Shown here piece by piece: positions 12,166-33,231 of a stretch of 64,000 nucleotides of DNA (position 1 is its first letter; each line of letters begins with the position of its first letter). The stretch is taken from assembly GCA_004362315.1 (NCBI GenBank), contig SNWL01000005.1:434001-498000 (forward strand). Reading direction: 5' to 3'. Under the pieces are notes generated by a model. It saw nothing but the letters and a program-made list of their open reading frames with translations, was not told the DNA's origin and made no database searches. The DNA comes from Mycobacterium sp. BK086. GTDB lineage: Bacteria; Actinomycetota; Actinomycetes; Mycobacteriales; Mycobacteriaceae. Both the position numbers and the translations under genes were made by a program.

Positions 12166-12172
12166 GGGCGCA

Positions 12173-18390: not shown

Positions 18391-19866
18391 TCAGGGTCGA
18401 GCAGTGGCCGCAGTGCGACCGGCTCGCCGGCCATAGAAGCTGCCGTCTCCGAGTGAGACACCGCTGGCGTAACCCCAGGCCGCCAGTCCCGCTGTACAGC
18501 GCCCCGCCGCGAAGAGCCCGGGGATGGGACTGCCGCTGACGTGCAGAACTTCGCCGTCCAATGACGTCATCAGGCCACCTAAGGTGAAGCCACCGCAGCT
18601 CGCCCGCAGGTCGATTGCCCCGACCGGAGTGCCGACCGGTTTGAGCCACTCCGGCTTCTTGTGCAGCAGCGGATCCTCGCCGCGCGACGCTGCGTCGTTG
18701 TAGGCGCCGATCGTCGACTGCAACGAGCCGGCCGGGAGACCGATCTCAGCCTCCAGCTCGGCGATCGTCTCGCACACCCATGTCGCAGGTCGCTTGAGGA
18801 ACGGCGTTGCCGACGTCGCCGCCATCGCTTCTTCCTGGGCGTCGCCGTCGATGATCAGATAGGCGGTGTCGTCCTGTCGGTACAGCGTCAGCTGCCCGAT
18901 TCGCCCGGAGTACATGTCCTCAGGGACGTATCGCTGGCCGAGCCCGTTGACCAGGACGCCGCGCACGGTCTGCTGCGGGTCGATCAGGAAGGCGACCTCG
19001 GTCGCATCCATGTGCGCGAGGTCGGCGCCGAGCGCCTGGGCCATCCGGATCGCCCGGCCGTCGTGTTGTTCGATCGACGCGGCGGGCCGACCGGCGATTG
19101 CCGGTGCGAATTGTTTGACCATCGACTCGCTGTAGGCGAAGCTCCCCGCCGCAAGCATGACGCCGCGGCGGGCACGCACCCGGACCGTCTCGCCGTACTG
19201 CCGCGCGACGACTCCCGACATCCGACCGTCGGACTCGACGACCAGTGTCTGTGCCCGCACGTCATAGACCGCTCGCACACCGAGGGACGTCGCCGTTTCG
19301 ACCAGTGGCTTCATCAACATGAATCCACCGCTCTTCTCGCCTGCGACCTTCCCGGTCATCTGCGGGATGTGCCCGCGCGGAGCGGGTTCGGCGATGGTGT
19401 TGAACGGGTAGGCGTTCTCACCGCCGGTGAACATCAGACCCTGATCGCCGGGCGGCTCCCAGCCGGGCTCACCCCAGAACTCCGGCTTGAACGGCACGCC
19501 GCAGTCGGTGAGCCAGTCGAAATGGTCGAGGCTGCCGTCGCAGTAGTCCGCGATGCGGGTTTCGTCGGCCCCTGGGCCCATCGCCACGTTGAGGAACGCC
19601 GCCATGTTCGACGGCGAATCCTCGAAACCACAGGCCTTCTGGATCGGTGTGCCGCCGCCGAGGTAGATGAACCCACCGGCCATTGCCGCCGCGCCGCCCC
19701 ACGAGCCGGTGCGTTCGAGCACCAGGACATCGGCACCGGCGCGTGCAGCCTCGACAGCAGCGGCCGCTCCCGCGATGCCGTAGCCGATGATGACCACATC
19801 GGCCTCGTGATCCCACCTCCCGATCGACGAGGCCGGGATAGGCGTGACGTCGTCCTCGGGTGTCAC
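18391..19866 (-). CDS. FAD-binding dehydrogenase of the KstD / flavocytochrome-c fold (copy A)
   Basis: A 491-aa flavoprotein: WDHEADVVIIGYGIAGAA gives the Rossmann motif near residue 22, followed by LERTGSWGGAAAMAGGFIYL, and the C-terminal FAD contact GLFAAGRCTAGLAAWGYASG. The fold is that of KstD and fumarate-reductase subunits, with an FAD-binding and a substrate cap domain. GTG at 19866 overlaps the VOC stop (GTGA), which fixes the start. Together with the HsaA- and HsaC-like neighbours it suggests a dehydrogenation that aromatises or desaturates a ring before cleavage. Close paralogue at 27957. Confidence 0.82.
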   Translation of the reverse strand: MTPEDDVTPIPASSIGRWDHEADVVIIGYGIAGAAAAVEAARAGADVLVLERTGSWGGAAAMAGGFIYLGGGTPIQKACGFEDSPSNMAAFLNVAMGPGADETRIADYCDGSLDHFDWLTDCGVPFKPEFWGEPGWEPPGDQGLMFTGGENAYPFNTIAEPAPRGHIPQMTGKVAGEKSGGFMLMKPLVETATSLGVRAVYDVRAQTLVVESDGRMSGVVARQYGETVRVRARRGVMLAAGSFAYSESMVKQFAPAIAGRPAASIEQHDGRAIRMAQALGADLAHMDATEVAFLIDPQQTVRGVLVNGLGQRYVPEDMYSGRIGQLTLYRQDDTAYLIIDGDAQEEAMAATSATPFLKRPATWVCETIAELEAEIGLPAGSLQSTIGAYNDAASRGEDPLLHKKPEWLKPVGTPVGAIDLRASCGGFTLGGLMTSLDGEVLHVSGSPIPGLFAAGRCTAGLAAWGYASGVSLGDGSFYGRRAGRTAATARP

Positions 19867-20771
19867 GGCCGCATGGCTGCCGGAAGATCCGATACCCACT
19901 GGTGCCCCCAATAGCTGTCGGCGGTTATCTCTTCTGCGGTGTAGTGACTTTCGTCTACCAGCTCGCCCGCAGTCCCGAATTCAATATCCCAGTCACCGGG
20001 CGCGCGTACATAGAACGACACCATTTTGTCGTTGGTGTGCCGGCCCAGCGTGGACGAGAGCTGGTATCCCGCGGCGTTGACGCGGTCAAGAGCCTGGCCG
20101 ACGGCGTCGAGGGAATCGACTTCGACCATGAGGTGGATCAGCCCCGGATCTCGCAGCGTCTGCGCCGGGCAGATCGCGAGGCTGTGGTGCCGTTGATTGA
20201 CACCCATGAACCGCACGCGCAGCGGACCGAACTCGGGCGGCACCGGCACCCGGAACGCGCCGCGCGACACGAATCCGAGTACCGCGGTATAGAACTCGAA
20301 AAGACCGTTCACATCGAGCGCAGGCAGGACGACGTGTCCGAGTCCCTGGCCGCCGGTGACGAAACGCGCTCCGAACGGGGTGACCACGGGGGAGTGGTCG
20401 AGTACCGCCCCGTGGAACACCTCGAGTGAGGTTCCGGCCGGATCCTCGAAGGCGATGACTTCCTCGACCCGTCTGGCGTCCGCCTCGTCGAGGGACAGTT
20501 GCTTGAACGGGGCGCCTGCGGTGTCGAGTGCGGCCTTGACCCGCTCCAGGTCGGCGTGGTCGCGTACCTCCCATCCGACGGTCAGGATTTTGTCCACATC
20601 GCCGGGGACGACGACGATGCGGGCGGCGCGTTCGTCGATGCGGAGGTACAGAGCGGCGTCGTCGGGACCACTGCCCTCGGCGAAACCGAGCACGTCGAAG
20701 GCGAAATGGCGCCAGCGACCGATGTCGGCGGTCGCGACGGTGACATAGCCGAGGCTCTTGATCAGACTCAT
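19863..20771 (-). CDS. Type I extradiol dioxygenase (VOC fold), HsaC/BphC-like (copy A)
   Basis: A 302-aa two-module VOC protein. The Fe(II) ligands of BphC-type enzymes are in place: H146 (GLGHVVLP), H213 (LIHLMVEV) and E264 (WDIEFGT). Second-shell His195 (RHHSLAI) and His245 (GRHTND) are also present. It should open a catechol ring next to the diol (meta-cleavage), as HsaC does in steroid and BphC in biphenyl breakdown. It lies one base from the HsaA-like gene, which would make the catechol, and overlaps the FAD gene. Copy B is at 29419. Confidence 0.88.
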   Translation of the reverse strand: MSLIKSLGYVTVATADIGRWRHFAFDVLGFAEGSGPDDAALYLRIDERAARIVVVPGDVDKILTVGWEVRDHADLERVKAALDTAGAPFKQLSLDEADARRVEEVIAFEDPAGTSLEVFHGAVLDHSPVVTPFGARFVTGGQGLGHVVLPALDVNGLFEFYTAVLGFVSRGAFRVPVPPEFGPLRVRFMGVNQRHHSLAICPAQTLRDPGLIHLMVEVDSLDAVGQALDRVNAAGYQLSSTLGRHTNDKMVSFYVRAPGDWDIEFGTAGELVDESHYTAEEITADSYWGHQWVSDLPAAMRP

Positions 20772-20772
20772 C

Positions 20773-21954
20773 TCAGATCATCGCCCGAAGCGGTCCCTGC
20801 GGATCGACACCCAAGGAGCTGAGTGCCGCGGCGTGGTAGATGGTTCCCGGCACATGGATGGCGTGGGCTTGGCCCACATGGACGTCGCGCCAATACCGTT
20901 GCAGCGGTTTGTCCATCCGTGCCGCATTGCCACCACAGCGCGCGAAGATCTCGTCGACCGCGGACACCGCGCGCCACACCGCGCGTACCTGGGTGCGCCG
21001 TCCGGCCGCCCGGTCCTCGAAGGACACCTCGTTTCCGGAGTCGACCATGTCGTAGATGCGATCGGCATTGGCGAGAAGTTCCTGCCGCGCCGCGTTGATG
21101 TCGGCTGCGGCCTCACCGATGGCGTACATGACGTAGGGGTCGTCCTTCACCGCCACCCCGCTGGCATTGACCCGCTCACGCTGATAATCCAGCGCCGCGG
21201 CGAGGGCGCCTTCAGCGATGCCGATGGTCGCCGCACTGATGCCGAGGGGGAACATCGTCGACCACGGCATGAGGTAGAGGGTGTCGGTCATGCCCGCCTC
21301 CCGCTGAGCCGTACCATCCATCACCTTCGTGGCATCCATGGTGCGGTAAGCCGGCACGAATGCGTTCTTGACGATCACGTCTTTCGACCCGGTACCGCGC
21401 AGCCCCACGACATTCCATGAGTCGTCGACGATCTCGTAGTCTTTGCGCGGCAGGATCATGTGGAGCATCTGCGGGGGCATCACGGGCTTGCCGTCGGCGT
21501 CGGCGAGCATTGCGCCGAGGAAGATCCAGTCGCAGTGGTCGGTGCCGGAGCTGAACTGCCACCGGCCGTTGAAGAGGTAACCACCGTCCACCGGCTTCGC
21601 CACGCCCTGCGGGGCATAGGGCGAGGCCACCCAGGTATCGACGTCCTCGGCCCAGATCTCGGCGGCAACCCTCGGATCGGCATACGCCAGCTGGTAGGGG
21701 TGCACACCCACGACACCGTTGATCCAGCCGGCCGACGGATCGAGCGCAGCGGTGGCCATGACGGTCTCGGCGAATTCACGTGGATGAACTTCCAGGCCGC
21801 CGTGCGACTTCGGTTGCAGCAAGCGGATATTGCCCGCCGATTTCATCAGCTTGACGGTCTCGTCGGTGAGCTTGCCGATTCTCTCGGCCTCGACACCCTG
21901 CTCGCGGAGTTGCTCGGCGTTTCGCCGCACCCGGTCGATTACCCGCTCAGTCAT
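20773..21954 (-). CDS. Acyl-CoA-dehydrogenase-fold flavin monooxygenase, HsaA-like (copy A)
   Basis: A 393-aa group D flavin hydroxylase: ALDPSAGWINGVVGVHPYQLA, FNGRWQFSSGTDHCDWIFLG, SWNVVGLRGTGSKDVIV and a C-terminal RYWRDVHVGQAHAIH. The catalytic Glu of acyl-CoA dehydrogenases is not at its place, and the GTGSKD and SSGTDHCDW motifs match HsaA/HpaB-type hydroxylases that use reduced flavin from a partner reductase. It would ortho-hydroxylate a phenol to the catechol cleaved by the next gene product. No HsaB-like flavin reductase is in the window. Paralogue at 30329. Confidence 0.85.
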   Translation of the reverse strand: MTERVIDRVRRNAEQLREQGVEAERIGKLTDETVKLMKSAGNIRLLQPKSHGGLEVHPREFAETVMATAALDPSAGWINGVVGVHPYQLAYADPRVAAEIWAEDVDTWVASPYAPQGVAKPVDGGYLFNGRWQFSSGTDHCDWIFLGAMLADADGKPVMPPQMLHMILPRKDYEIVDDSWNVVGLRGTGSKDVIVKNAFVPAYRTMDATKVMDGTAQREAGMTDTLYLMPWSTMFPLGISAATIGIAEGALAAALDYQRERVNASGVAVKDDPYVMYAIGEAAADINAARQELLANADRIYDMVDSGNEVSFEDRAAGRRTQVRAVWRAVSAVDEIFARCGGNAARMDKPLQRYWRDVHVGQAHAIHVPGTIYHAAALSSLGVDPQGPLRAMI

Positions 21955-22047
21955 GATCTGTTCCCATCTCGCTCGGCTGAGGCTGATCGTGTACCGGTGC
22001 GGCGACGACGGCGGTCAGGATTCCCGGTCAGCGGAAAGCGGCCGCAC

Positions 22048-22368
22048 TCAGAATTCGACGTGGACGTCATCGGTGAGTGGTCTGGCCTGGCAGCTGAGAA
22101 TCACGCCGTCCGCAAGGTCTTCGGCCTTCAGGATGTCACAGACGGCCATGTCGACCTTTCCGGTCACCACGGTCGCCGCGCAGGACCCGCAGTGGCCCTC
22201 TTTACAGGAGAACGGCACGTCGAGTCCGGCGGCGATCAGGGTGTCGACGAGGGTGGCGGCTCGAGGCCAGCGCACACGGTGCTGTATTCCGTAGAGGTCG
22301 ACGTGAGCGGTCGCGGTCTCTGCGCTCTCGAATTGCGTTGCCGCTGTGCTGCTGTCGAGGTCGGCCAT
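22048..22368 (-). CDS. Plant-type [2Fe-2S] ferredoxin
   Basis: A 106-aa protein with the cluster motif C-x4-C-x2-C (SCKEGHCGSC) and the fourth Cys in VILSCQARP about 30 residues later. The fold ends with the typical TDDVHVEF strand, as in the C-terminal domain of KshB-type reductases, but here it stands alone. It begins the copy A minus-strand operon; copy B has no such gene. Likely donates electrons to an oxygenase of the region, possibly the KshA-like protein at 4021 (inference). A possible partner reductase is not present. Confidence 0.87.
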   Translation of the reverse strand: MADLDSSTAATQFESAETATAHVDLYGIQHRVRWPRAATLVDTLIAAGLDVPFSCKEGHCGSCAATVVTGKVDMAVCDILKAEDLADGVILSCQARPLTDDVHVEF

Positions 22369-22419
22369 GGGCGCCCATTCTGGCCGACTGGCCGGGACGT
22401 GGTATTCGGGCGTCCATTC
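22369..22419. promoter_or_regulatory. Direct repeats GGGCGYCCATTC in the ferredoxin/BVMO divergent region
   Basis: GGGCGCCCATTC (22369-22380) and GGGCGTCCATTC (22408-22419) differ at one base and are 39 bp apart start to start. Between them is GGCC-gact-GGCC. The region is the shared promoter of the ferredoxin and BVMO genes. Paired sites suggest regulator binding or chance duplication; no regulator gene is adjacent. Confidence 0.35.
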
Positions 22420-22456
22420 ACCGGGAAGCGGGTCTGTCGGCTGCGTGACCGGCGCC

Positions 22457-22462
22457 TACCGT
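22457..22462 (+). promoter_or_regulatory. -10 hexamer TACCGT, leaderless promoter of BVMO copy A
   Basis: TACCGT is 7 nt before the GTG start at 22470. Copy B has TACGCT at the same distance before its ATG, so both copies appear leaderless with conserved geometry. Confidence 0.55.
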
Positions 22463-22469
22463 TCGGTGC

Positions 22470-24083
22470 GTGAGCAGTGAGTCGAAGACCGACGTCGATG
22501 TCGTCGTGGTGGGAGCCGGATTCGCCGGCCTGTATGCCCTGCACAAGTTCCGCTCGCAGGGGCTGTCGGTGCGGGTGTTCGAGGGGGCACCTGAGGTCGG
22601 CGGCACCTGGTATTTCAATCGATATCCGGGCGCACGGTGTGACGTCGAAAGCGTCGACTACTGCTACTCGTTCTCCGACGAGCTGCAACAGGAGTGGACG
22701 TGGACCGAGAAATACGCCACTCAGACCGAGATTTTGGCCTACATCAACTGGGTCGCCGACAAGCTCGATTTGCGCCGGAACATCACCTTCGACACCCGGG
22801 TGACGAGCGCGGTTCTCGACGAAAAGACGTTGCACTGGACGGTCACCACTGACGCAGAGGAGACGGTACGGGCCCGCTTCGTCGTCATGGCGACAGGTCC
22901 ACTCTCGGCGGCACTGACTCCGAACTTCCCGGGGCTGGACAGCTTCCGTGGCGAGGTCTACCACACAGCGCACTGGCCGCACGAGAGCGTGGATTTCACC
23001 GGCAAGCGCGTTGCCGTCATCGGCACCGGATCCTCGGGAGTTCAATCGATACCGATCATCGCCGAACAAGCCGAACAGCTCTACGTGTTCCAACGCACGC
23101 CGAATTACAGTGTGCCTGCGGGCAATCGGCCACTGACTGCGGACGAGGTCGCCGACGTCAAGGCAAATTACGCCGACCGCCGACGGATGTCGTGGCGTAG
23201 TGGCGGCGGGTCACCGCACGTTGCGCATCCGAAGCTGACGATGGAGGCCACGCCGGAGGAGCGCAGGGCGGCGTTCGAGAAACGCTGGGAATTCGGCGGC
23301 GTGCTGTTCTCGAAGACGTTCACCGACCAGATGGTCTCCGCGCAGGCCAACGACGAGGCCCGCAAGTTCTACGAGGAGAAGATTCGCGCCGTCATCGACG
23401 ATCCGGCTCTCGCGGAGCTGCTCATCCCGACCGACCATCCGATCGGCACCAAGCGAATATGCACCGATTCCAACTACTTTCAGACGTTCAATCGGCCCAA
23501 CGTCGCACTGATCAGTGTGCGCGACACTCCCATCGAGTCGATGGACGAAACGGGAATCGCCACCTCGGACGCGCACTTCGAGATCGACGCACTGGTGCTG
23601 GCAACCGGGTTCGACGCGATGACCGGCGCGCTCGCCAAGATCGAGATCGTGGGCCGTTCGGGGGAGCGGTTGATCGATGACTGGGCTGATGGGCCTCGGA
23701 CTTATCTAGGATTGGGGACCGACGGCTTCCCCAATCTTTTTCTGGTGTCGGGGCCTGGCGCACCTGCGGTTCTCGCCAACATGGTGTTGCACGCCGAGGC
23801 GCACGTCGATTGGATCGCCGAGGTGATCGAGTACCTGGACGATTGCGGTTACGACGCCGTCGAACCGACCGCTGCGGCCGTCGACAGCTGGATCGCGGAG
23901 TGTGCGCAACGCGCTGAAGCGACATTGTTCACCAAGGCCGACTCCTGGTACATGGGTGCCAATGTTCCCGGCAAGCCGCGAGCCTTCATGCTCTTCATCG
24001 GCGGCTTCGGAACCTATCTCGATATCTGCAACGAGGTAGCCGCCGCCGGGTACAAGGGATTCGATCTCATCAAGGCGCCGTAG
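22470..24083 (+). CDS. Type I Baeyer-Villiger monooxygenase (copy A)
   Basis: A 537-aa enzyme of cyclohexanone-monooxygenase type: VVVVGAGFAGLYALHKF near residue 12, VGGTWYFNRYPGARCD, the fingerprint FRGEVYHTAHWP near 160, the second nucleotide fold VAVIGTGSSGVQ, and the C-terminal ATGFDAMTG. FAD-bound and NADPH-dependent; converts cyclic or linear ketones to lactones or esters. GTG start at 22470 supported by a -10 hexamer 7 nt upstream. It is directly followed by a mycofactocin-type SDR with no gap, pointing to an alcohol-ketone-lactone sequence. Very close paralogue at 31630. Confidence 0.9.
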   Translation: MSSESKTDVDVVVVGAGFAGLYALHKFRSQGLSVRVFEGAPEVGGTWYFNRYPGARCDVESVDYCYSFSDELQQEWTWTEKYATQTEILAYINWVADKLDLRRNITFDTRVTSAVLDEKTLHWTVTTDAEETVRARFVVMATGPLSAALTPNFPGLDSFRGEVYHTAHWPHESVDFTGKRVAVIGTGSSGVQSIPIIAEQAEQLYVFQRTPNYSVPAGNRPLTADEVADVKANYADRRRMSWRSGGGSPHVAHPKLTMEATPEERRAAFEKRWEFGGVLFSKTFTDQMVSAQANDEARKFYEEKIRAVIDDPALAELLIPTDHPIGTKRICTDSNYFQTFNRPNVALISVRDTPIESMDETGIATSDAHFEIDALVLATGFDAMTGALAKIEIVGRSGERLIDDWADGPRTYLGLGTDGFPNLFLVSGPGAPAVLANMVLHAEAHVDWIAEVIEYLDDCGYDAVEPTAAAVDSWIAECAQRAEATLFTKADSWYMGANVPGKPRAFMLFIGGFGTYLDICNEVAAAGYKGFDLIKAP

Positions 24084-24890
24084 ATGCCGTCGGGCTTGGC
24101 GGACAAGGTCGTTCTGGTTACCGGCGCGGCCAGGGGCACGGGCCGGGTGCACTGTGAACGGTTCGCCGACGAAGGTGCCGACGTCATCATGTTCGACCAC
24201 GCCGACGCGGCCGACGACCTGCGCGAGACCGCGCAGCGCGTGACGCAGCGGGGGCGGCGTGCCGTCGCCACAGCGGCCGACGTGACCGATCTCGCCCAGG
24301 TCACCAGCGCGGTCGAAGAAGGCGTCGGACAACTGGGCAGGCTGGACATCGTCGTGGCCAACGCCGGGATCCACACGCCTGGTGGACCCGCCTGGCAGAT
24401 CGATCCAGCGGTATGGCAACACACCATCGACGTGAACCTGACCGGCGTGTGGCATACGGTCCGGGCGGGTGTACCCCACATCGGTCCTGAGGGCGGCTCG
24501 GTGGTGATCATCAGTTCCACCAACGGATTACGGGGCACCGCAGGCACTGCTCATTACACCGCCAGTAAACATGCCGTCGTCGGGCTGGCGCGCACCCTGG
24601 CCAACGAGCTGGGGCCCAGGAGCATCCGGGTCAACACCGTGCACCCAGGTGCTGTCGGCACACCCATGGTTCGAAATGAGGCGACGTACAAACGCCTGCG
24701 TCCCGATCTGGACAACCCGACCGAGGCCGACGCTGCCGAGGTCCTCGCCGCCCGCAACCTGTTGCCCGTGCCGTGGGTCGAACCCGTCGACGTCGCGAAC
24801 GCCGTCGTCTTCCTGGCGTCCGATCAGGCTCGGTACATCACCGGAACCCAGCTGGTCGTCGACGCCGGCCTGACCCAGAAGACGACATGA
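24084..24890 (+). CDS. SDR, mycofactocin-coupled type
   Basis: A 268-aa SDR beginning immediately after the BVMO stop. Motifs: VTGAARGTG near 12, ANAG, SSTNG and YTASK. The region after the active site (NPTEADAAEVLAARNLLPVP, then WVEPVDVANAVVFLASDQAR) matches the signature of the mycofactocin-coupled SDR family, whose members keep their NAD bound and pass electrons to the mycofactocin redox carrier. Carveol and similar secondary alcohol dehydrogenases belong here. A probable role is to make the ketone used by the adjacent BVMO. Overlaps the next SDR by ATGA. Confidence 0.83.
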   Translation: MPSGLADKVVLVTGAARGTGRVHCERFADEGADVIMFDHADAADDLRETAQRVTQRGRRAVATAADVTDLAQVTSAVEEGVGQLGRLDIVVANAGIHTPGGPAWQIDPAVWQHTIDVNLTGVWHTVRAGVPHIGPEGGSVVIISSTNGLRGTAGTAHYTASKHAVVGLARTLANELGPRSIRVNTVHPGAVGTPMVRNEATYKRLRPDLDNPTEADAAEVLAARNLLPVPWVEPVDVANAVVFLASDQARYITGTQLVVDAGLTQKTT

Positions 24891-25720
24891 CCGGCCGGCT
24901 CGAGGGGAAGACCGCGTTCATCACCGGAGCTGCGCGGGGCATCGGTCGTGCCCAGGCGGTGCGTTTCGCGCAAGAGGGTGCGGCGATCATCGGCGTCGAC
25001 ATCTGCGGCCCTGTCGAATCAGTGCACGTGCCCGCGAGCACCCCGGACGACCTCGACGAGACCGTACGCCTGGTCGAGCGCCTCGGCGGACGCATCGTCG
25101 CCGATATCGTCGACGTACGCGATCGCGACGCACTGACCGCGAGCGTCGACCGCGGTGCCGCCCACTTCGGCGGACTCGACATCGTTTGCGCCACAGCAGG
25201 AATCACGTCACGCGGCGCGGCCGTCGATATGACGGAGTCGACATGGCGAACGATGGTGGACGTCAACCTCACCGGGGTATGGCATACCTGCACGGCTGCG
25301 GTGCCCCACTTGATCGATCGCGGGGGAGGGGCTGTGGTGCTGGTGAGTTCGATCGCCGGTCTGCGCGGCCTGGTCGGTGTCGCCCACTACACCGCGGCCA
25401 AGCACGGTGTGGTCGGTCTGATGCGCAGCCTCGCACAGGATTTGGCGCCCCACGGCATTCGTGTCAACACGGTCCACCCGACGAACGTCGATACGCCGTT
25501 GATCCAGAACGACGTGGTGAGCAGCGCGTTCCGACCCGATCTGACCCGGCCGCCGACCAGGCAGGAGTTCGCCGAAGCGGCGTCGACGATGAACATGCTC
25601 GCGGTGCCCTGGGTGGACCCACGCGACGTTGCCAATGCCAGCCTGTTCCTGGCCTCCGATGAGGCGCGCTACATCACCTCGGTTAGCCTTCCGGTAGACG
25701 CCGGCAGTACCCAGCGTTAG
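24887..25720 (+). CDS. SDR, mycofactocin-coupled type (tandem relative)
   Basis: A 277-aa SDR read from the ATG at 24887 that overlaps the previous stop; the frame extends upstream but without support. LEGKTAFITGAARGIGRAQA and VDICGP at the second strand end are typical of mycofactocin-coupled SDRs, as is MNMLAVPWVDPRDVANASLF near the end. Active-site SSIAG and YTAAK. A paralogue of the upstream gene with a somewhat different substrate loop. A tandem pair suggests two stereochemical or successive alcohol oxidations. Confidence 0.85.
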   Translation: MTGRLEGKTAFITGAARGIGRAQAVRFAQEGAAIIGVDICGPVESVHVPASTPDDLDETVRLVERLGGRIVADIVDVRDRDALTASVDRGAAHFGGLDIVCATAGITSRGAAVDMTESTWRTMVDVNLTGVWHTCTAAVPHLIDRGGGAVVLVSSIAGLRGLVGVAHYTAAKHGVVGLMRSLAQDLAPHGIRVNTVHPTNVDTPLIQNDVVSSAFRPDLTRPPTRQEFAEAASTMNMLAVPWVDPRDVANASLFLASDEARYITSVSLPVDAGSTQR

Positions 25721-25746
25721 GCACAACGGTTATCGAAAGGCACGTG

Positions 25747-26601
25747 ATGACAACACTCGACGGTGACGTGGTGACCTACGAAGTCGTTGGCGGAACCGCG
25801 GTGGTGACCATGAACCGCCCGCGCTACCGCAACGCCCAGAATTCGGTCATGACCTATGCCCTCGACGCCGCTTTCCAACGAGCCGTCGAGGACGACGATG
25901 TTCATGTCATCGTGCTGGCCGGCAACGGCGACCACTTCAGCGCCGGCCACGACATCGGCACACCGGACCGCGATCACCATGTGTCGTACGACAACAAGGC
26001 CGCGCTCTGGTGGGACCACGTCGACAAAGAGGGCGGCGACATGCGCTACGCCCGTGAGGTCGAGGTCTATTTGGGGATGTGCCGGCGCTGGCGGGAGATT
26101 CCCAAGCCCACCATCGCCATGGTGCACGGCGCCTGCATTGCCGGCGGGCTCATGCTGGCGTGGGTCTGCGACATGATCATCGCCGCCGATGACGCGTTCT
26201 TCTCAGATCCCGTTGTGCGCATGGGTATCCCGGGCGTGGAGTACTTCGCCCACCCCTGGATCGTGGGGTCACGCTTCGCCAAGGAGATGTTGTTCACCGG
26301 GGACAAGTTCGGTGCACAGCGTGCCTACGAGATCGGGATGGTCAACCGAGTCGTGCCGCGCGACGAACTCCGGACCGCCACCCTCGAGATGGCCGAACGG
26401 ATCGCCACCATGCCGAGATTCGGTCTCGCCTTGACGAAGCGCGCGGTCAACCAATGCGAGGACCAGATGGGCTTGCGCAGCGGCATGGATGCGGTGTTCG
26501 GGCTGCATCACTTTGCCCATTCGCACAACGTCGAAGTCGGTCAGGACTCGCTTGGTGGGCTGGACGCGAAGACGATGGCGGCGGGTCGTAAAGTGCCGTA
26601 G
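25747..26601 (+). CDS. Enoyl-CoA hydratase/isomerase family protein
   Basis: A 284-aa crotonase. Two oxyanion-hole segments are visible: AGNGDHFSAGHDIG (CoA binding near residue 65) and MVHGACIAGGLMLAWVCD (near 125), followed by FSDPVVRMGIPGVEYFAHP. The ring-like AALWWDH insert after the first motif occurs in a subgroup found in steroid and terpene gene sets. AAAGG lies 7 nt before ATG 25747; a GTG at 25744 is a less likely start. It hydrates or isomerises an enoyl-CoA, or may hydrolyse a ring C-C bond. Last gene of the BVMO-SDR-SDR unit. Confidence 0.87.
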   Translation: MTTLDGDVVTYEVVGGTAVVTMNRPRYRNAQNSVMTYALDAAFQRAVEDDDVHVIVLAGNGDHFSAGHDIGTPDRDHHVSYDNKAALWWDHVDKEGGDMRYAREVEVYLGMCRRWREIPKPTIAMVHGACIAGGLMLAWVCDMIIAADDAFFSDPVVRMGIPGVEYFAHPWIVGSRFAKEMLFTGDKFGAQRAYEIGMVNRVVPRDELRTATLEMAERIATMPRFGLALTKRAVNQCEDQMGLRSGMDAVFGLHHFAHSHNVEVGQDSLGGLDAKTMAAGRKVP

Positions 26602-26664
26602 CCCAAGGTTTTCCACAGCCTGGGGTTCATCAACAGGCAGCCGGTTTTTGTCGGTGGCCGGGCA

Positions 26665-26670: not shown

Positions 26671-26676
26671 TTGGGC

Positions 26677-27960
26677 ATGACTTCGATCGTGGCGGCGTTG
26701 GATGCGCTCGACGCCGCTGTCGAACTACTGGGCGCCGCTGATATCCAGGAGTTGCCCGCACCGCAGCGGTTCGCGGCGATCGAACGGCTGGAAAACGCGG
26801 TCCGCTGCCAGGTCGCGATCTCCCATGAACAGCTCACCAACCGCGAGCGCTACGAGGGCTGCCCGCCGATTCCGATGGTGTTGGCTGATGTGTTGCGAAT
26901 CAGTCGCACGGCCGCCAAGCGCCGGGTCCGCGATGCCGAGCAGCTGACCGCGCGCACCACATTGACCGGCGAGCAGCTCCCGCCCTTGTTGCCGGCCACG
27001 GGGAAAGCCTGGGCGGCCGGTCACCTCGACGGCGAGCACGTGCGGGTGATCCAGAAGTTCTTCCGAGAGTTGCCCGATCATGTCGGCCCAGCCGAGGTCG
27101 ACAAGGCCGAACGCGCCCTGGCTGAGCACGCCCAGAGGATGCGGCCCGACCAGCTGGAGAAGGTGGCTGATCGCCTCGCCGTCCATCTCAACCCCGACGG
27201 AAAGTTTTCGGACGAGGACCGGGGCCGCAAACGGGGCTTCCAATGGTGCGGCAGCCAACGCCCCGACGGCATGAGTGTCGGGAAACTGATCGCCGATCCA
27301 CAACTGCGCGCGGAATTGGATGCGTGGTTGGCGAAGTTCGCTGCACCCACCCCCGACGACCTGCGTAGCCATGTCCAGCGCCAGCACGACGCCCTCAAGA
27401 CATTGGTCCACGAGCGGCTAGGTGATCCGAAACTCGGTCAGCACAACGGGTTACCGGTCACGATGATTGTCACCACCACCCTGCAGGACTTGCAGAAGGG
27501 CGCGGGGAAAGCCGTTACCGCGGGCGGCACGTTGATCCCGGTCTCGGATCTGATCCGAATGAACGCTTCCGCCTACAACTATCTGGCAGTGTTCGACGGT
27601 GTGACCGGCCGGTCGCTCTGGCTGGGCCGCAGTAAACGCCTGGCCTCGGCGGATCAGCGCATCATGTTGTTGGCGAAATACCGGGGCTGCACTGCACCCG
27701 GATGCGCGGTCAACGGCTACAACAGCCAGGTTCATCACGCCGACAAGGACTGGAAACACGGCGGCCACACCGATATCGACGATCTCACCCTGGCATGCCA
27801 ATGCAACAACCTCATGGTCGAAAACGACGGCTGGACCACCCACCAACTACCCAACGGCCAAACCTATTGGACCCCACCACCTGACGTACCCCTGCGCGGC
27901 GGCACCAACGACTACCATCATCCCGAACGGTTTCTGCCGAAAGACGACGAGAAGGACTAA
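26677..27960 (+). CDS. DUF222 / HNH endonuclease-motif protein (13E12 family)
   Basis: A 427-aa protein. Residues 1-310 form the DUF222 domain (helical; RFAAIERLENAVRCQVAISH, VLRISRTAAKRRVRDAEQL, LDGEHVRVIQKFF). Residues 335-385 form an HNH motif: KYRGCTAPGC, then QVHHADKDW and TLACQCNN, with two Cys and His-His for zinc and catalysis. Mycobacteria carry many such 13E12-type genes, and some act as phage insertion sites; their biochemical role is unclear. It sits exactly between the two copies of the catabolic module, but no terminal inverted repeat or target duplication was seen. Its stop overlaps that of the FAD gene by four bases. Confidence 0.85.
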   Translation: MTSIVAALDALDAAVELLGAADIQELPAPQRFAAIERLENAVRCQVAISHEQLTNRERYEGCPPIPMVLADVLRISRTAAKRRVRDAEQLTARTTLTGEQLPPLLPATGKAWAAGHLDGEHVRVIQKFFRELPDHVGPAEVDKAERALAEHAQRMRPDQLEKVADRLAVHLNPDGKFSDEDRGRKRGFQWCGSQRPDGMSVGKLIADPQLRAELDAWLAKFAAPTPDDLRSHVQRQHDALKTLVHERLGDPKLGQHNGLPVTMIVTTTLQDLQKGAGKAVTAGGTLIPVSDLIRMNASAYNYLAVFDGVTGRSLWLGRSKRLASADQRIMLLAKYRGCTAPGCAVNGYNSQVHHADKDWKHGGHTDIDDLTLACQCNNLMVENDGWTTHQLPNGQTYWTPPPDVPLRGGTNDYHHPERFLPKDDEKD

Positions 27961-29417
27961 GGCCGGGCAGCCGAGCGACCGGCGCGGCGGCCGTAAAAGC
28001 TGCCGTCGCCCAACGAGATTCCGCTCGCGTAGCCCCATGCGGCCAATCCCGCGGTGCAGCGACCGGCTGCGTACAGGCCCGGGATCGGGTCGCCGCTGAC
28101 GTGCAACACCTCGGCCGAGAGGGTGGTGCGCAACCCGCCGAGGCTGAAACCGCCCGTGCTGTGCCGCAGGTCGATCGCGCCGATGGGACTGCCCAGAGGG
28201 CGTAGCCATCGAGCCTTCTTGTGCAGCAACGGATCCTCACCGCGGGCCGCGGCCTCGTTATAGCGCGCCACCGTGTCCTGCAGGCTGCCATAGGGTAGGC
28301 CCATCTCGGCCTCGAGCTCGGCCACCGTCTCACACACCCACTTCGGTTTGCGCAGAATCAGTTTGGGTGTCTGCGATGCCAGGGCCTGTTCTTGACCTTC
28401 CTCATCGAGGATCAGGAAGGCCTTGTCGTCCTGGTAGTAGAGCGTGTGCTGTCCCACCCGGCCCGGGTAGGTGTCCTCGGCGACGAAGCGCTGCCCGCGC
28501 CCGTTGACCAGAATGCCCCGCACCAGCTGCTGCGGATCGACGAAGAAGGCCACCTCGGTGGCATCTGTGTGGGAAAGATCGGCGCCGAGGGCCTGCGCCA
28601 TCCGAATGCCTTGCCCGTCATGCTGTTCCACCGCGGAAATCGGCCGGCCGGCGATCCGCGGGGTGAAGCGGGCCATCATCGACTCGTTGTAGGCGAAGCT
28701 GCCCGTTCCCAACACCACGCCGCGGCGAGCGCGGATGGCGATGTCGGTGCCGTACTGGCGTGCGGTGATACCGACGACCCGGCCGTCGGACTCGACGACG
28801 AGGGACTGCACGCGCACGTCGTACTCGGCCCGAACACCAAGTCCTGTCGCGGTTTCCACGAGCGGCTTCATCAGCATGAAGCCAGCACTGGCCTGACCCT
28901 GCTTCTTGTTCTGCATCTTCGGTACATGCCCGCGCGGCGCCGGTTCGGCGATGGTGTTGAACGGGTAGGCATCTTCGCCGCCGCTGTACATCAGTCCCTG
29001 GTCGCCCAGCGGTTCCCAGCCCGGCTCGTCGAAGAACTCCGGTTTGAACGGCACGCCGCAGTCAACCAGCCAGTTGAAGTGCGCGACGCTGCCTTCGGAG
29101 TAGTCGGCAATGCGCTCCCGGTCGGCGCCCGGGCCCATCGCCGCGTTGAGGAAGGCGGCCATATTGTCCGCGGAATCGCTGAAACCGCAGGCTTTTTGCA
29201 GGGGAGTGCCGCCACCCAGATAGATGAACCCGCCGGCCAGGGCCGCCGCACCGCCCCAGGCTCCCGCCCGCTCCAGCACCAGAACATCGGCGCCCGCTCG
29301 CGCGGCTTCGACCGCCGCGGTCGCACCGGCCACGCCGTAGCCGGCGATCACCACGTCGGCCTCGTGGTCCCAGCTCGTCACCGCGGCGGCGGGGACCGGG
29401 CGGACGTCGGTGTTCAC
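27957..29417 (-). CDS. FAD-binding dehydrogenase of the KstD / flavocytochrome-c fold (copy B)
   Basis: A 486-aa paralogue of the protein at 18391 with the same landmarks: WDHEADVVIAGYGVAGAT, LERAGAWGGAAALAGGFIYL, and the C-terminal GLYAAGRCTAGLAAWGYASG. A GTG at 29417, one base past the VOC stop, is the preferred start; a longer frame to 29525 would run into the VOC gene. The two copies differ mainly in the N-terminal tail and in the middle domain around the substrate. Expected to desaturate a ring ketone, as for copy A. Confidence 0.82.
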   Translation of the reverse strand: MNTDVRPVPAAAVTSWDHEADVVIAGYGVAGATAAVEAARAGADVLVLERAGAWGGAAALAGGFIYLGGGTPLQKACGFSDSADNMAAFLNAAMGPGADRERIADYSEGSVAHFNWLVDCGVPFKPEFFDEPGWEPLGDQGLMYSGGEDAYPFNTIAEPAPRGHVPKMQNKKQGQASAGFMLMKPLVETATGLGVRAEYDVRVQSLVVESDGRVVGITARQYGTDIAIRARRGVVLGTGSFAYNESMMARFTPRIAGRPISAVEQHDGQGIRMAQALGADLSHTDATEVAFFVDPQQLVRGILVNGRGQRFVAEDTYPGRVGQHTLYYQDDKAFLILDEEGQEQALASQTPKLILRKPKWVCETVAELEAEMGLPYGSLQDTVARYNEAAARGEDPLLHKKARWLRPLGSPIGAIDLRHSTGGFSLGGLRTTLSAEVLHVSGDPIPGLYAAGRCTAGLAAWGYASGISLGDGSFYGRRAGRSAARP

Positions 29418-29418
29418 G

Positions 29419-30327
29419 TCAGGGTCGCATGGCTGCCGGCAGGTCGCCGACCCACTTGTGGCCCCAGTAGCTGTCGGCGGTGATTTCCTCAGCGGTGTAA
29501 CGGCTTTCGTCGACCCGCATGCCACCGGTGCCGAACTCGATATCCCAGTCGCCGGGGGCGCGGACGTAGAACGACACCATCTTGTCGTTGGTGTGCCTGC
29601 CCAGCGTGGACGACAGCTGGAATTCCTGGGCGGCGATCCGATCCAAGGCCTCGCCGACCGCGTCGAGGGTGTCTACCTCCACCATCATGTGGATCAGGCC
29701 TGGGTCGCGCTGATGCATCGCAGGGGCAATCGCCAGACTGTGATGGCGTTCGTTGAGGCCGAGGAAGCGGATCCGGATCGGGCCGAATTCCTTGGGCAGC
29801 GGGACGCGGAACGCACCCCGGGACACGAATCCCAGTACCTCGGTGTAGAACTCGAACAATCCGGGGGCGTCCATGGCCGGCAGCACGACGTGACCGAGGC
29901 CTTGATCGCCGGTGACAAACCGGGCGCCGAATGGGGTGACGACGGGGCTGTGGTCGAGGACCGCGCCGTGGAACACCTCCAGATGAGTGCCGGCCGGATC
30001 GTCGAACGCGATGACTTCCTCGACGCGCCGGTCGTCGGCCTCGGACTGCGACAGCTGCTTGTACGCCACCCCGGCACCGTCGAGCAGTTCCTTCACCTGC
30101 TCCAGTGCCGCGTGGTCACGGACTTCCCAGCCCACGGTCGCGATCCGGTCGCCGTCGCCGGGCACCACGATGATGCGGGCGGCCCGCTCGTCCATCCGCA
30201 GATACAGCGCCGCCGGGTCCGGGCCCTTGCCTTCAGCGAATCCCAGGACACCGAAAGCGAATTGGCGCCAGCGATCGATGTCCGCGGTTTGGATGGTGAC
30301 GTAGCCGAGGCTCTTGAACAGAGCCAC
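29419..30327 (-). CDS. Type I extradiol dioxygenase (VOC fold), HsaC/BphC-like (copy B)
   Basis: A 302-aa protein colinear with copy A. The iron ligands are kept: His in GLGHVVLPA (146), His in LIHMMVEV (213) and Glu in WDIEFGT (264). Differences cluster in the N-terminal module and in the loop AIAPAMHQRDPG, which is near the active site, so substrate range may differ. It follows the HsaA-like gene by one base. Catechol meta-cleavage is the expected reaction; the product would suit the HsaD-like hydrolase at 33237. Confidence 0.88.
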   Translation of the reverse strand: MALFKSLGYVTIQTADIDRWRQFAFGVLGFAEGKGPDPAALYLRMDERAARIIVVPGDGDRIATVGWEVRDHAALEQVKELLDGAGVAYKQLSQSEADDRRVEEVIAFDDPAGTHLEVFHGAVLDHSPVVTPFGARFVTGDQGLGHVVLPAMDAPGLFEFYTEVLGFVSRGAFRVPLPKEFGPIRIRFLGLNERHHSLAIAPAMHQRDPGLIHMMVEVDTLDAVGEALDRIAAQEFQLSSTLGRHTNDKMVSFYVRAPGDWDIEFGTGGMRVDESRYTAEEITADSYWGHKWVGDLPAAMRP

Positions 30328-30328
30328 G

Positions 30329-31513
30329 TCAGATCATCGCCCGCAGCGGACCCTGCGGGTCGACACCGAAGGAGCTCAGCGCCGATGCGTGATAGACGGT
30401 GCCCGGCACGTGAATGGCGTGCGCCATCCCCGTGTGGGCATCGCGCCAATAACGTTGCAGCGGCTTGTCCATCCGCATGGCGTTACCGCCGGAACGGGCG
30501 AAGATCTCGTCCACCGCACTGACCGCACGCCAGACCGCGCGAACCTGGGTGCGACGTCCGGCCGCACGGTCCTCGAACGAGACCTCCTTGCCGGCGTCGA
30601 CCATGTTGTAGATCCGGTCCACGTTGGCCAGGATCTCCTGGCGGGCGGCGTTGATGTCGGCGGCGGCCTCACCGATCGCGTACATCACGTACGGGTCGTC
30701 CTTGATCGCGGTGCCCGCGGCGCTGACCCGCTCACGCTGGTAGTCCAGGTGCGCAGCCAGCGCACCTTCGCAGATGCCGATGGTGGCCGAGGAGATGCCG
30801 AGGGGGAACATCGTCGACCACGGCATCAGGTAGAGGGTGTCGGTCATCCCGGCCTCGCGCTGGGCCGTGCCGTCCATGACCTTGAACGCGTCCATCACCC
30901 GGTATTCGGGCACGAATGCGTCCTTGACGATGACGTCCTTGGAGCCGGTGCCGCGCAGTCCCACCACGTCCCAGGAATCCTCGACGATGGTGTAGTCCTT
31001 GCGGGGCAGGATCATGTGCAGCATCTGCGGCGGCATCTGCACCTTGCCGTCGGCGTCGCTCTTGATGGCGCCGAGGAAGATCCAGTCGCAGTGGTCGGTG
31101 CCGGAGCTGAACTGCCAGCGTCCGTTGAAGATGTAGCCGCCGTCGACCGGCCGGGCGATGCCCTGAGGGGCGTAGGGGGAGGCGACCCAGGTGTTGACGT
31201 CGTCGGCCCAGATCTCCGCGGCGACCCGGGGGTCGGCGTACGCCAGCTGGTAGGGGTGCACACCCACAACGCCGTTGATCCAGCCGGCGGCGGGGTCCAG
31301 TGCGGCAATCGCCATGACGGTCTCGGCGAACTCGCGGGGATGGACCTCGAGGCCGCCGAACTTGGCGGGCTGCAGGAGCCGGATGTGGCCGGCCTCTTTC
31401 ATGACCTTGACGGTCTGGTCGGTGAGTTTGCCGATCTTCTCGGCCTCAACGGCCTGCTCGCGCAGCTGGTCGGCCAGCTCGTTGGTCTTGTCGAGCACCG
31501 AAGCAGTCATCAT
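30329..31513 (-). CDS. Acyl-CoA-dehydrogenase-fold flavin monooxygenase, HsaA-like (copy B)
   Basis: A 394-aa paralogue of the enzyme at 20773, with FNGRWQFSSGTDHCDWIFLG, SWDVVGLRGTGSKDVIV and RYWRDAHTGMAHAIHVPG. It starts with two consecutive ATG codons; AAGGA lies a few bases upstream. Reduced-flavin-dependent ortho-hydroxylation of a phenol is the expected reaction. It is the first gene of the copy B minus-strand operon because no ferredoxin gene precedes it. A flavin reductase must be supplied from elsewhere. Confidence 0.85.
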   Translation of the reverse strand: MMTASVLDKTNELADQLREQAVEAEKIGKLTDQTVKVMKEAGHIRLLQPAKFGGLEVHPREFAETVMAIAALDPAAGWINGVVGVHPYQLAYADPRVAAEIWADDVNTWVASPYAPQGIARPVDGGYIFNGRWQFSSGTDHCDWIFLGAIKSDADGKVQMPPQMLHMILPRKDYTIVEDSWDVVGLRGTGSKDVIVKDAFVPEYRVMDAFKVMDGTAQREAGMTDTLYLMPWSTMFPLGISSATIGICEGALAAHLDYQRERVSAAGTAIKDDPYVMYAIGEAAADINAARQEILANVDRIYNMVDAGKEVSFEDRAAGRRTQVRAVWRAVSAVDEIFARSGGNAMRMDKPLQRYWRDAHTGMAHAIHVPGTVYHASALSSFGVDPQGPLRAMI

Positions 31514-31570
31514 GCATCCTTGTCCAGGTCTGGGCTGTTGGTTTCATCCTGACGCCGCGAGACGGTCAGT

Positions 31571-31588
31571 ATCGGGCAATGTCCCGAT
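31571..31588. promoter_or_regulatory. Inverted repeat ATCGGG-N6-CCCGAT in the copy B divergent promoter
   Basis: Perfect 6-bp arms (31571-31576, 31583-31588) with spacer caatgt, between the HsaA-like and BVMO starts. It ends 28 bp before the BVMO -10 hexamer. Not seen in the copy A promoter region, so regulation of the two copies may differ. Confidence 0.5.
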
Positions 31589-31616
31589 GAGCGGGGCAAG
31601 TTAGCGACGCTCGACC

Positions 31617-31622
31617 TACGCT
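31617..31622 (+). promoter_or_regulatory. -10 hexamer TACGCT, leaderless promoter of BVMO copy B
   Basis: TACGCT lies 7 nt before ATG 31630, the same geometry as in copy A. Fits a leaderless transcript. Confidence 0.55.
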
Positions 31623-31629
31623 GCTGGGC

Positions 31630-33231
31630 ATGAGCCTCGACGTGGTGGTGGTCGGCGCCGGCTTCGCCGGGCTCTACGCGCTGCACAAGTTCCGCGAGCA
31701 GGGCCTGTCGGTGCGGGTGTTCGAGGCGGCCCCCGACCTGGGCGGCACCTGGTATTTCAACCGGTACCCGGGCGCACGGTGCGATGTCGAAAGCGTCGAC
31801 TACAGCTACTCGTTCTCCGACGAACTGCAACAGGAATGGACCTGGAGCGAGAAGTACGCCGCGCAGGGTGAGATCCTCGCCTACCTGAATTGGGTTGCCG
31901 ACCGACTCGACCTGCGCGGCGGGATCACCTTCGACACCCGGGTGGCATCGGCGGTGCTGGACGAGACCACCCTGACCTGGACGGTGACGACCGAGGACGG
32001 GCAGACCGTCACCGCACGGTTTGTCGTCATGGCCACCGGGGCGTTGTCGTCGGCCATCACACCGGCATTCGAGGGTCTGGAGAATTTCGGCGGCGAGATC
32101 TTTCACACCGCGCACTGGCCGCACGAGGGGGTGGACTTCACCGGCAAGCGGGTCGCGGTCATCGGCACGGGTTCCTCAGGTATCCAATCGATTCCGATCT
32201 TCGCCGAGCAAGCCGAGCACCTGTACGTCTTTCAGCGCACCCCCAACTACAGCATCCCGGCGGGCAATGCTCCGCTGACGCCGCAGCAGGTGGCCGAGAT
32301 CAAGGCCACCTACGCCGAGCGCCGGCGGGTCTCTTTCCGCAGCGGCGGTGGCTCGCCCTACGTCGGCACCACGAAACTGACGTTTGAGGTGTCACCGGAG
32401 GAACGCTACGAGGCCTTTGAGAAGCGTTGGCAGCTCGGTGGTGTGCTGTATTCCAAGACCTTCCCCGACCAGCTGACCAATGCCGAGGCCAACGACGAGG
32501 CCCGCAGATTCTGGGAGGACAAGATTCGCGCGGTGATCGACGACCCACAGGTCGCCGATCTGCTGATCCCCGACGACCATCCGATCGGATCGAAGCGAAT
32601 CTGTACCGACTCCAACTACTTTCAGACGTTCAACCGGCCCAACGTGACGTTGATCAGTGTCCGCCGCACGCCGATCGAGTCGATCGACGAGACCGGCATC
32701 ACCACCTCCGACGCGCATATCGACCTCGATGCGATCATCTTCGCCACCGGATTCGACGCGCTCACAGGCTCATTGGGCAAGATCGACATCGTCGGGCGTG
32801 GGGGCGAACTGCTACGCGACGACTGGGCCGACGGGCCGCGCAGTTACCTCGGACTGGGTGACGACGGTTTCCCGAACCTGTTCGTGATCACCGGCCCGGG
32901 AGCGCCCGCGGTGCTGGCCAACATGGTGCTGCACGCCGAGTCCCATGTCGACTGGATCGCCGACGCCATCGGTTATCTCGACTCCCGTGGTTACGCCGGC
33001 ATCGAGGCGACCCCGGAGGCGGTGGAGAACTGGCTCGCCGAACTCACTCAGCGCGCGTCGACCACGTTGTTCCCGCGAGCCAACTCCTGGTACATGGGCG
33101 CCAATGTGCCCGGCAAGCCACGGGTTTTCATGCTCTTCATCGGTGGCTTCGGCGCCTACAACGACATCTGTGCCGAGGTCGCCGCCGCCGGCTACAAGGG
33201 TTTCGAGCTGCTGAGCCGTCCCGCGGGTTAG
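31630..33231 (+). CDS. Type I Baeyer-Villiger monooxygenase (copy B)
   Basis: A 533-aa enzyme nearly colinear with that at 22470: VVVVGAGFAGLYALHKFREQ, LGGTWYFNRYPGARCD, the BVMO fingerprint FGGEIFHTAHWP, VAVIGTGSSGIQ and ATGFDALTG. Usual length for cyclohexanone-monooxygenase relatives. The N-terminus is four residues shorter than copy A. Products would be lactones or esters. Unlike copy A it is not followed by SDR genes but by a convergent C-C hydrolase five bases away. Confidence 0.9.
   Translation: MSLDVVVVGAGFAGLYALHKFREQGLSVRVFEAAPDLGGTWYFNRYPGARCDVESVDYSYSFSDELQQEWTWSEKYAAQGEILAYLNWVADRLDLRGGITFDTRVASAVLDETTLTWTVTTEDGQTVTARFVVMATGALSSAITPAFEGLENFGGEIFHTAHWPHEGVDFTGKRVAVIGTGSSGIQSIPIFAEQAEHLYVFQRTPNYSIPAGNAPLTPQQVAEIKATYAERRRVSFRSGGGSPYVGTTKLTFEVSPEERYEAFEKRWQLGGVLYSKTFPDQLTNAEANDEARRFWEDKIRAVIDDPQVADLLIPDDHPIGSKRICTDSNYFQTFNRPNVTLISVRRTPIESIDETGITTSDAHIDLDAIIFATGFDALTGSLGKIDIVGRGGELLRDDWADGPRSYLGLGDDGFPNLFVITGPGAPAVLANMVLHAESHVDWIADAIGYLDSRGYAGIEATPEAVENWLAELTQRASTTLFPRANSWYMGANVPGKPRVFMLFIGGFGAYNDICAEVAAAGYKGFELLSRPAG

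Follow-up and report, generated by a model that had tools for sequence, protein, structure and literature searches.

Two copies of a ring-opening module

The 64,000 nt stretch of DNA analysed here (the window; contig position C3:434001-498000 in the 6.93 Mb, 11-contig genome of Mycobacterium sp. BK086) carries two diverged copies, A and B, of a four-gene module with characterised relatives among steroid-degrading enzymes. Contigs of this genome are designated C#, loci fetched for comparison L### and genomes G###. Both copies lie in the span 18391-33231, which had been flagged in an earlier note on this DNA. Each encodes, on the minus strand, an FAD-dependent dehydrogenase (A: 18391-19911; B: 27957-29525), an HsaC-like extradiol dioxygenase of the VOC type (19863-20771; 29419-30327) and an HsaA-like flavin monooxygenase (20773-21954; 30329-31513), and, divergently on the plus strand, a Baeyer-Villiger monooxygenase (BVMO; 22470-24083; 31630-33231). 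The observation that these four genes occur twice in the same order and orientation is thus borne out, as is the conserved spacing of the VOC and HsaA-like genes, which are 1 base apart in both copies; the gap from the HsaA-like to the BVMO gene measures 515 bases in A, where it holds a ferredoxin gene, and 116 in B. The listed ORFs of the FAD proteins extend about 50 (A) and 107 (B) bases into the VOC genes, so that their true starts probably lie downstream.

Between the copies, 361 of 498 aligned residues are identical in the FAD proteins (72.5%), 244 of 302 in the dioxygenases (80.8%), 336 of 393 in the HsaA-like proteins (85.5%) and 406 of 529 in the BVMOs (76.7%). The similarity is not due to chance, because the alignment scores range from 1293 to 2216 and those of shuffled sequences (10 per pair) never exceed 48. 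Third codon positions of A and B are 50-60% identical, and dS between the copies in the window is 0.87-1.24. Both copies are under purifying selection, with dN/dS values of 0.035-0.142 for each copy against its orthologues, at dS often near or above 0.5-1.

Both FAD proteins are closer to Kst4D, the 3-ketosteroid delta4(5alpha)-dehydrogenase, than to KstD: copy A scores 780 bits to Kst4D of R. jostii RHA1 (4AT0) and 109 to KstD 4C3X, and 4AT0 (758 bits) is the only match of copy B at E<=1e-100. The alignments are nearly full length, and the residues which we take to be catalytic in Kst4D (Tyr319, Tyr466 and Ser468) are, by eye, conserved in the window proteins. For both BVMOs the full-length best solved match is the steroid monooxygenase (STMO) 4AOS, with 820 (A) and 826 bits (B) as against 624 and 626 to phenylacetone monooxygenase (1W4X); they are referred to below as STMO-A and STMO-B. 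Dioxygenase A has BphC_D1 and Glyoxalase domains and passes the BphC model TIGR03213 (372, cut-off 366), and dioxygenase B matches 2ZI8, presumably HsaC of M. tuberculosis, with 293 bits. The best solved match of HsaA-like protein B is 2OR0 ('Hydroxylase', 555 bits), ahead of 3AFE ('Hydroxylase, putative', 322) and 2RFQ (3-HSA hydroxylase, 307). With copy A scanned, the curated equivalog cut-offs were failed for HsaA (NF045629, 368 vs 450) and HsaC (NF045631, 351 vs 450).

Copy A is accompanied by a stand-alone plant-type [2Fe-2S] ferredoxin (22048-22368, minus strand; Fer2, 49 bits) and, on the plus strand, by two mycofactocin-type short-chain dehydrogenases/reductases (SDRs) at 24084-24890 (TIGR03971, 330) and 24887-25720 (ATG at 24887; 384, scanned as the longer ORF 24773-25720; cut-off for both 300), and an enoyl-CoA hydratase family protein (ECH) of the PRK08290 type (25744-26601; NF006140, 460, cut-off 280). 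Next to copy B, and starting just beyond the end of the flagged span, lies an HsaD-like C-C hydrolase gene (33237-34091, minus strand), whose product scores 228 bits to HsaD 7ZJT and fails the HsaD equivalog cut-off (NF045632, 271 vs 400). In six searched stretches of the own genome, the best match of the ferredoxin is the ferredoxin end of a KshB-like reductase in the hsa cluster (L094:14249-14512; 55.7% over 88 aa). Given this resemblance it may feed KshA; alternatively, it could reactivate the dioxygenase in the fashion of XylT, a ferredoxin with that function.

Five further genes, missing from the gene list of the earlier note, are needed to read the locus. KstD, 3-ketosteroid-delta1-dehydrogenase (2174-3880, minus strand; NF009479, 1055 bits, cut-off 793), is divergent from KshA, the oxygenase of 3-ketosteroid 9alpha-hydroxylase (3970-5169, plus strand, with an in-frame ATG 51 bases downstream at 4021; PF19298 KshA_C, 304 bits, and a Rieske domain). 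The KshA_C profile has 7 matches across the own genome, and the window KshA scores highest. A second, longer BVMO of 640 aa (12267-14189, plus strand; FMO-like by Pfam) is a conserved neighbour in relatives, and its best alignments to solved structures span only about residues 127-358. An HSL-type esterase (16037-17170, minus strand; Abhydrolase_3, 251 bits) is a candidate for the hydrolysis of steroid 17-acetates, and a homologue directly follows STMO in loci L148-L150. An IclR-family regulator (16957-17766, minus strand; IclR_C 107 bits, HTH_IclR 49 bits) completes the set. The second BVMO is followed by a third SDR (SDR3; 14186-15073, plus strand; Pfam adh_short), a candidate 17beta-hydroxysteroid dehydrogenase, and a 64% identical protein adjoins STMO in loci of other genera.

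KshA, KstD and HsaA-, HsaC- and HsaD-type genes accordingly lie in one region, which is the gene content of a 9,10-seco steroid cluster; a hydratase of the HsaE type, which scores below the curated cut-offs, is encoded outside the window beside kstD on C2. The suggestion of a steroid-like ring opening made in the earlier note is supported by the characterised steroid relatives and by the presence of KshA and KstD in the window. Its statement that the gene set could not be matched to a described pathway does not hold, as Kst4D, STMO, HsaA, HsaC and HsaD all have characterised relatives and KshA and KstD lie nearby.

Synteny and distribution of the module

A search with the B dioxygenase yielded 176 relatives. 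The best of these were retained in 79 loci, whose titles place them all in the Mycobacteriaceae; where relatives of copy B carry a name, it is Mycobacterium or Mycolicibacterium. According to tblastn maps, A and B occur together in 8 of these 79 loci (L013, L015-L019, L022 and L023), only a B-type module was seen within the fetched stretch in 5 (L014, L020, L021, L024 and L025), and 66 have a single or partial module. The typical single locus has the order HsaD-SDR-SDR-BVMO-Fdx-HsaA-VOC-FAD-IclR-esterase-Dabb-Dabb-SDR-BVMO-AMP-ligase (Fdx, ferredoxin), with losses and inversions. The genome search for the same synteny, which the earlier note had proposed, thus finds this gene order widespread in mycobacteria: the module is usually single-copy, and the tandem pairing is a local oddity of this clade.

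HsaD adjoins B, and IclR adjoins A in the tandem loci that were fetched far enough (the window, L022, L191, L192 and L193). The different accessories formerly ascribed to the copies are indeed present (ferredoxin, two TIGR03971 SDRs and ECH in A, HsaD by B), but the difference mostly reflects the layout of the single locus, at whose opposite ends HsaD and IclR lie; this arrangement would be expected had both ends been retained. L035 carries a single module with B-like HsaA, HsaD and VOC, which sits between a right flank (cyclase/HsaD) and a left flank (IclR/esterase) of the window type.

In 121 of 198 sampled genomes of the genus, the dioxygenase gave a match at E<=1e-130, a threshold that also admits relatives of 65-79% identity; 13 of the 198 have a B-type dioxygenase (at least 88%). 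Ten of these 13 carriers have a second copy within 12 kb, 79-83% identical to B and called A-type by identity; in G329 the second copy is 1.6 Mb off, and in G336 and G457 no second copy above 75% was found. A check of HsaA in 16 genomes found both A-type (92-100%) and B-type (85-87%) proteins in 10, one HsaA above 75% in L014, L020, L021, L025 and L035, and two in L024. In the genome of L024 (G306), the HsaA-type copies are ~1.6 Mb apart and not in tandem. At the level of the order, STMO matches at E<=1e-150 occur in 93 of 298 genomes; among the matches listed, an identity of at least 72% is confined to the genus of the window.

Outside this genus, locus L149, presumably from Rhodococcus, contains an array of KstD-like, IclR, KshA, HsaA, HsaC, STMO, esterase, SDR, SDR, BVMO, FMN oxidoreductase and HsaD genes, in which KshA scores 287 bits to KshA_C and STMO 771 bits to 4AOS, below both window copies. 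This array is the strongest evidence that HsaA, HsaC and STMO of this lineage would act on steroids. A third HsaA/HsaC copy in the own genome (C4:1-40000, L092/L093), 62.6-65.7% identical to A and B, sits with MCE, KstD-like, KshA and HsaD-like genes in a cluster that is perhaps C-19+-like.

The remaining neighbours comprise a PadR-like regulator ORF (1515-2177) adjoining KstD, and an acyl-CoA ligase and an acyl-CoA dehydrogenase (9434-12282) between KshA and the second BVMO; one or both of the latter are present in many single-module loci too. To the right of HsaD lie a HAMP-adenylate/guanylate cyclase gene and then a gene for a mechanosensitive-channel protein with a cyclic-nucleotide-binding domain (34219-37853), and homologues of these adjoin HsaD in all 13 B-carrying loci L013-L025 as well as in L035. 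The gene between the two copies (26671-27960, plus strand), reported earlier as DUF222/HNH, is a DUF222 gene by Pfam (264 bits), with the HNH motif seen by eye only. It is incidental and no part of the module: the own genome has 19 DUF222 matches, and no such gene was found at this position in the tandem strains L016, L019, L022 and L129, which have other DNA of 1.0-1.3 kb (L016, L019, L129) or only ~0.2 kb and no ECH match (L022).

Phylogeny and origin of the pairing

The four-gene tree comprises 42 modules rebuilt by adjacency, among them 7 rows of A (3 with Kst4D and 4 cut by the locus end) and 13 of B. Identical sequences were dropped from the trees, and L017 and L018, which are the same assemblies as L130 and L128, were removed from the four-gene tree and from the enlarged palindrome set described below. 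A and B each form a clade (both 100/100), but A groups with five single modules of the M. fortuitum group (100/99) and B with L035 (100/100). Neither copy is therefore closer to its counterpart than to modules in other genomes, an outcome that the earlier note had named as speaking against its interpretation. Forcing A and B into one clade costs 130 log units and is rejected (approximately unbiased test, p-AU 0.0078), and a recent tandem duplication in situ, with A and B as nearest relatives, is rejected with it. Of the ancient duplication formerly proposed, the deep divergence is right and the in-situ origin is not; an older duplication, before the A- and B-related lineages split, is possible. 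Because A nests with the fortuitum-group modules and not with B, the A/B split is older than that between A and the fortuitum group.

Two explanations of the pairing, both of which concern only its origin and are compatible with a role in steroid degradation, have to be weighed. We give slightly less than an even chance to juxtaposition by transfer, in which B would be resident and the A block would have come from a fortuitum-group-like mycobacterium, or the reverse. In the rpoB tree, which omits L021, L026 and L035, all 14 B carriers sampled, 10 of them tandem and 4 B-only, fall into a single clade (100/100), and a clade of these carriers with the fortuitum group (without M. wolinskyi and M. 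brisbanense) is rejected (p-AU 1.5e-7), whereas the A modules group with fortuitum-group single modules. Moreover, the neighbouring IclR (84-86%), esterase (70-72%) and second BVMO (85-86%) show their highest or near highest identity outside the tandem strains to the fortuitum group. However, the second BVMO of L033 (87%) and the esterase of L137 (72%) do as well or better, and the single-gene trees conflict in detail, A Kst4D grouping with M. tusciae-like rows instead of the fortuitum group and the A dioxygenase of L022 standing apart from other A rows. Nor does the module tree reject a clade that unites the fortuitum group with M. wolinskyi and M. brisbanense and excludes A (p-AU 0.45), so that a vertical placement of A is tolerated.

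This tolerance counts in favour of ancient paralogy, according to which the ancestor of the genus would have had both lineages and most species would have lost B. In the STMO tree, B likewise lies outside a 78-row group of A and other single modules (Shimodaira-Hasegawa-like approximate likelihood ratio test, SH-aLRT, 94). The explanation needs many losses, though, given the few B-type genomes and the single rpoB clade of their carriers, and we regard it as conceivable, at a chance of roughly a third.

A palindrome shared by the promoters

The palindrome CCGNTNANCGG, located near -57 upstream of STMO genes, is common across relatives. In a first set of 81 STMO upstream regions it was found in 67 by the strict and in 71 by the relaxed pattern, compared with means of 0.6 and 1.1 in Markov-resampled controls. 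In the enlarged set it precedes 87/108 STMO, 71/109 HsaA, 25/44 ferredoxin and 41/87 HsaD genes (control means 0.1-1.1), 0/75 IclR genes, and none of the operon-internal FAD (0/52) and VOC (0/107) genes. Operator-like copies in the window are located upstream of HsaA-A (22024-22034), in the divergent promoter of HsaA-B and STMO-B (31584-31594) and 46 bases before the start of the HsaD-like ORF (34138-34148, missed by the extended pattern); a further one lies between the ferredoxin and STMO-A (22414-22424, relaxed pattern only), and two more are inside window ORFs (7067 and 44249). In loci of other genera, the palindrome was read off, without a control, upstream of HsaD in L148, L149, L150 and L154 and in the divergent region of STMO and a KstD-like gene in L152 and L154.

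The shared palindrome suggests that the STMO, HsaA, ferredoxin and HsaD genes may be under shared control. Because the same element precedes them all, A, B and HsaD are probably induced together and would carry out the same reactions, differing at most in their preferences. The IclR protein is, by position only, a candidate regulator. The three promoter stretches examined (A, B and HsaD) lack the motif AACNNGTT, which we take to be the KstR box and which is present at the own kstD/hydratase promoter.

Across the own genome the extended palindrome occurs at 46 places, of which 24 (3 in the window) were inspected for their neighbours. Among 20 such places only C2:355336 and C3:411423 lie between two divergently transcribed ORFs, and most others are inside ORFs. 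This list, noisy and selective as it is, includes the promoter of kstD and the HsaE-type hydratase, a site upstream of the C4 KstD-like gene and sites before two MlaE/YrbE-type permease genes; in the C4 locus L092 the sites are at 3868 and 14620. The kstD/hydratase site (about C2:355336; L216 2338-2348) stands alongside a KstR-like box, which is present in 30/30 kstD loci. The palindrome occurs at -63 in the 7 of these 30 loci that are most like the kstD of the window, and six of the 7 genomes are B-type carriers.

A proposed pathway for C20-ketosteroids

We consider it rather probable that the locus is a catabolic island for C20-ketosteroids, i.e. progesterone-like pregnanes. The STMO-type BVMOs would act on the ketone of the C20 side chain and leave a 17-acetate, from which the esterase and an SDR would produce the 17-alcohol and then the 17-ketone. 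Kst4D (on 5alpha-reduced substrates), KstD and KshA would transform the nucleus to the 9,10-secophenol, with ring B opened. The HsaA-like enzyme, with an unlinked reductase, would then hydroxylate ring A, the HsaC-like enzyme would cleave it in meta position, and the HsaD-like enzyme would hydrolyse the product; the HsaB reductase and the HsaE-G steps would be supplied from elsewhere, from HsaE onward by the chromosomal hsa set. The core [HsaD / SDR-SDR-STMO / Fdx-HsaA-HsaC-Kst4D / IclR...] would then represent one locus, of which this clade holds two diverged lineages side by side.

This proposal is supported by the best solved matches, which are Kst4D, STMO, 2ZI8 and HsaD, together with the 2OR0 hydroxylase ahead of HsaA; by KstD and KshA sharing the window, and by the likewise steroid-type L149 array and C4 third copy; by the enrichment of the palindrome upstream of STMO, HsaA, ferredoxin and HsaD genes and its occurrence at some steroid-type promoters of the own genome; and by the single-locus synteny across mycobacteria and the tree positions.

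Several observations weigh against it. Progesterone is indistinguishable from other methyl ketones by sequence, and the failed equivalog cut-offs indicate that the substrates of HsaA, HsaC and HsaD may differ from the canonical secosteroid; HsaB was not identified in the part of the window ORFs scanned, and no BVMO is seen next to the B genes of the carriers L024 and L025. The palindrome counts do not represent independent events, since the set includes many closely related loci and contains some assemblies twice. The palindrome at STMO-A in the window is degenerate, and a window-wide scan with 3 mismatches gives no excess (41 vs 39 expected), so that the signal rests on the cross-species comparison of promoters. 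It precedes 0/52 esterase, 0/61 SDR3 and only 1/50 second BVMO genes, and the place of these three in the pathway therefore rests on synteny. At kstD it was seen elsewhere than at -63 in 1/30 loci and not at all in the other 22, and G359, which has the -63 site, has no B dioxygenase match at E<=1e-130. A genus-wide control of kstD by the palindrome is rejected on these grounds (7/30 loci; G359 without a module match). Finally, according to PMC12239570, progesterone use by derepressed M. smegmatis is tied to a luciferase-like monooxygenase in the ADD+ cluster (personal communication), which would point to a different route in this bacterial group.

Besides the C20-ketosteroid island, the idea that one module was duplicated and that its copies then specialised, A for one ring substrate and B for another, seems unlikely to us. 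Purifying selection keeps both copies, 10 of the 13 B-type carriers retain the second one within 12 kb, the accessories differ, and Kst4D is the most diverged pair. However, the copies are not each other's nearest relatives, the second copy is missing or elsewhere in 3 of the 13, and the single locus, with its two ends, accounts for most of the difference in accessories; the same palindrome, degenerate at STMO-A, stands at both copies, and neither it nor the purifying selection on both lends support to two substrates. An extended form of the C20-ketosteroid proposal is also, in our estimation, rather improbable: a dedicated mycobacterial pathway under a regulon of its own, where thiolytic side-chain loss would be replaced by two Baeyer-Villiger steps in succession, that of STMO on the side chain and that of the 640-aa BVMO on the ring-D 17-ketone, with two diverged ring-A modules under one operator and the kstD/hydratase promoter recruited. 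A non-steroid methyl-ketone or terpenoid pathway with borrowed steroid-type enzymes, an idea in part raised by the earlier note and compatible with the failed cut-offs and the good BVMO scores to phenylacetone monooxygenase, is very improbable in view of the presence of KstD, KshA and Kst4D in this locus, of KshA and a KstD-like gene in the L149 array, and of the palindrome at some steroid-type promoters of the own genome.

Relation to known systems

Actinobacterial 9,10-seco clusters (the cholesterol hsa cluster, the Rhodococcus cholate cluster and the kshA clusters of R. jostii RHA1) share KstD, KshA and HsaA-, HsaC- and HsaD-type genes with the window, which differs from them in that its core also includes STMO and Kst4D, that two lineages of this core lie next to each other and that the promoters examined have no KstR-type box. 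PMC4064121 describes the roles of KshA homologues in the four kshA-containing clusters of R. jostii RHA1 as poorly understood. The C-19+ cluster of M. smegmatis (PMC5962712) is likewise a steroid cluster apart from that for cholesterol, and the own C4 cluster appears to resemble it; A and B have the distance to the C4 HsaA and HsaC given above, and a scan of window ORFs turned up no MCE gene.

The closest solved relative of the window BVMOs, 4AOS, is the enzyme of Rhodococcus rhodochrous (PMC12239570), and according to the references in that paper the enzyme has been known since the 1990s. In contrast to it, the window BVMOs, as putative steroid monooxygenases, belong to a ring-cleavage module. 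A Baeyer-Villiger step yielding testosterone acetate has been shown for other bacteria (PMC12239570). In the pdc progesterone cluster of Caenibius tardaugens the BVMO was shown to act on the C20 ketone, but it is only 30.4% identical to STMO, has a luciferase-like partner, and belongs to a 4-gene cluster without ring-cleavage genes (PMC12239570). The same paper (2025) states that genes channelling progesterone into mineralisation had not previously been described, and goes on to identify a BVMO together with a luciferase-like enzyme from a proteobacterium. In the available sections of the open-access literature searched, an STMO/ring-cleavage cluster of the present kind was not found described. 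If the C20-ketosteroid proposal is true, the actinobacteria would gain a concrete candidate gene set for progesterone together with a testable operator, and part of the multiplicity of hsa, kstD and kshA paralogues would be explained in mycobacteria that are used for steroid production.

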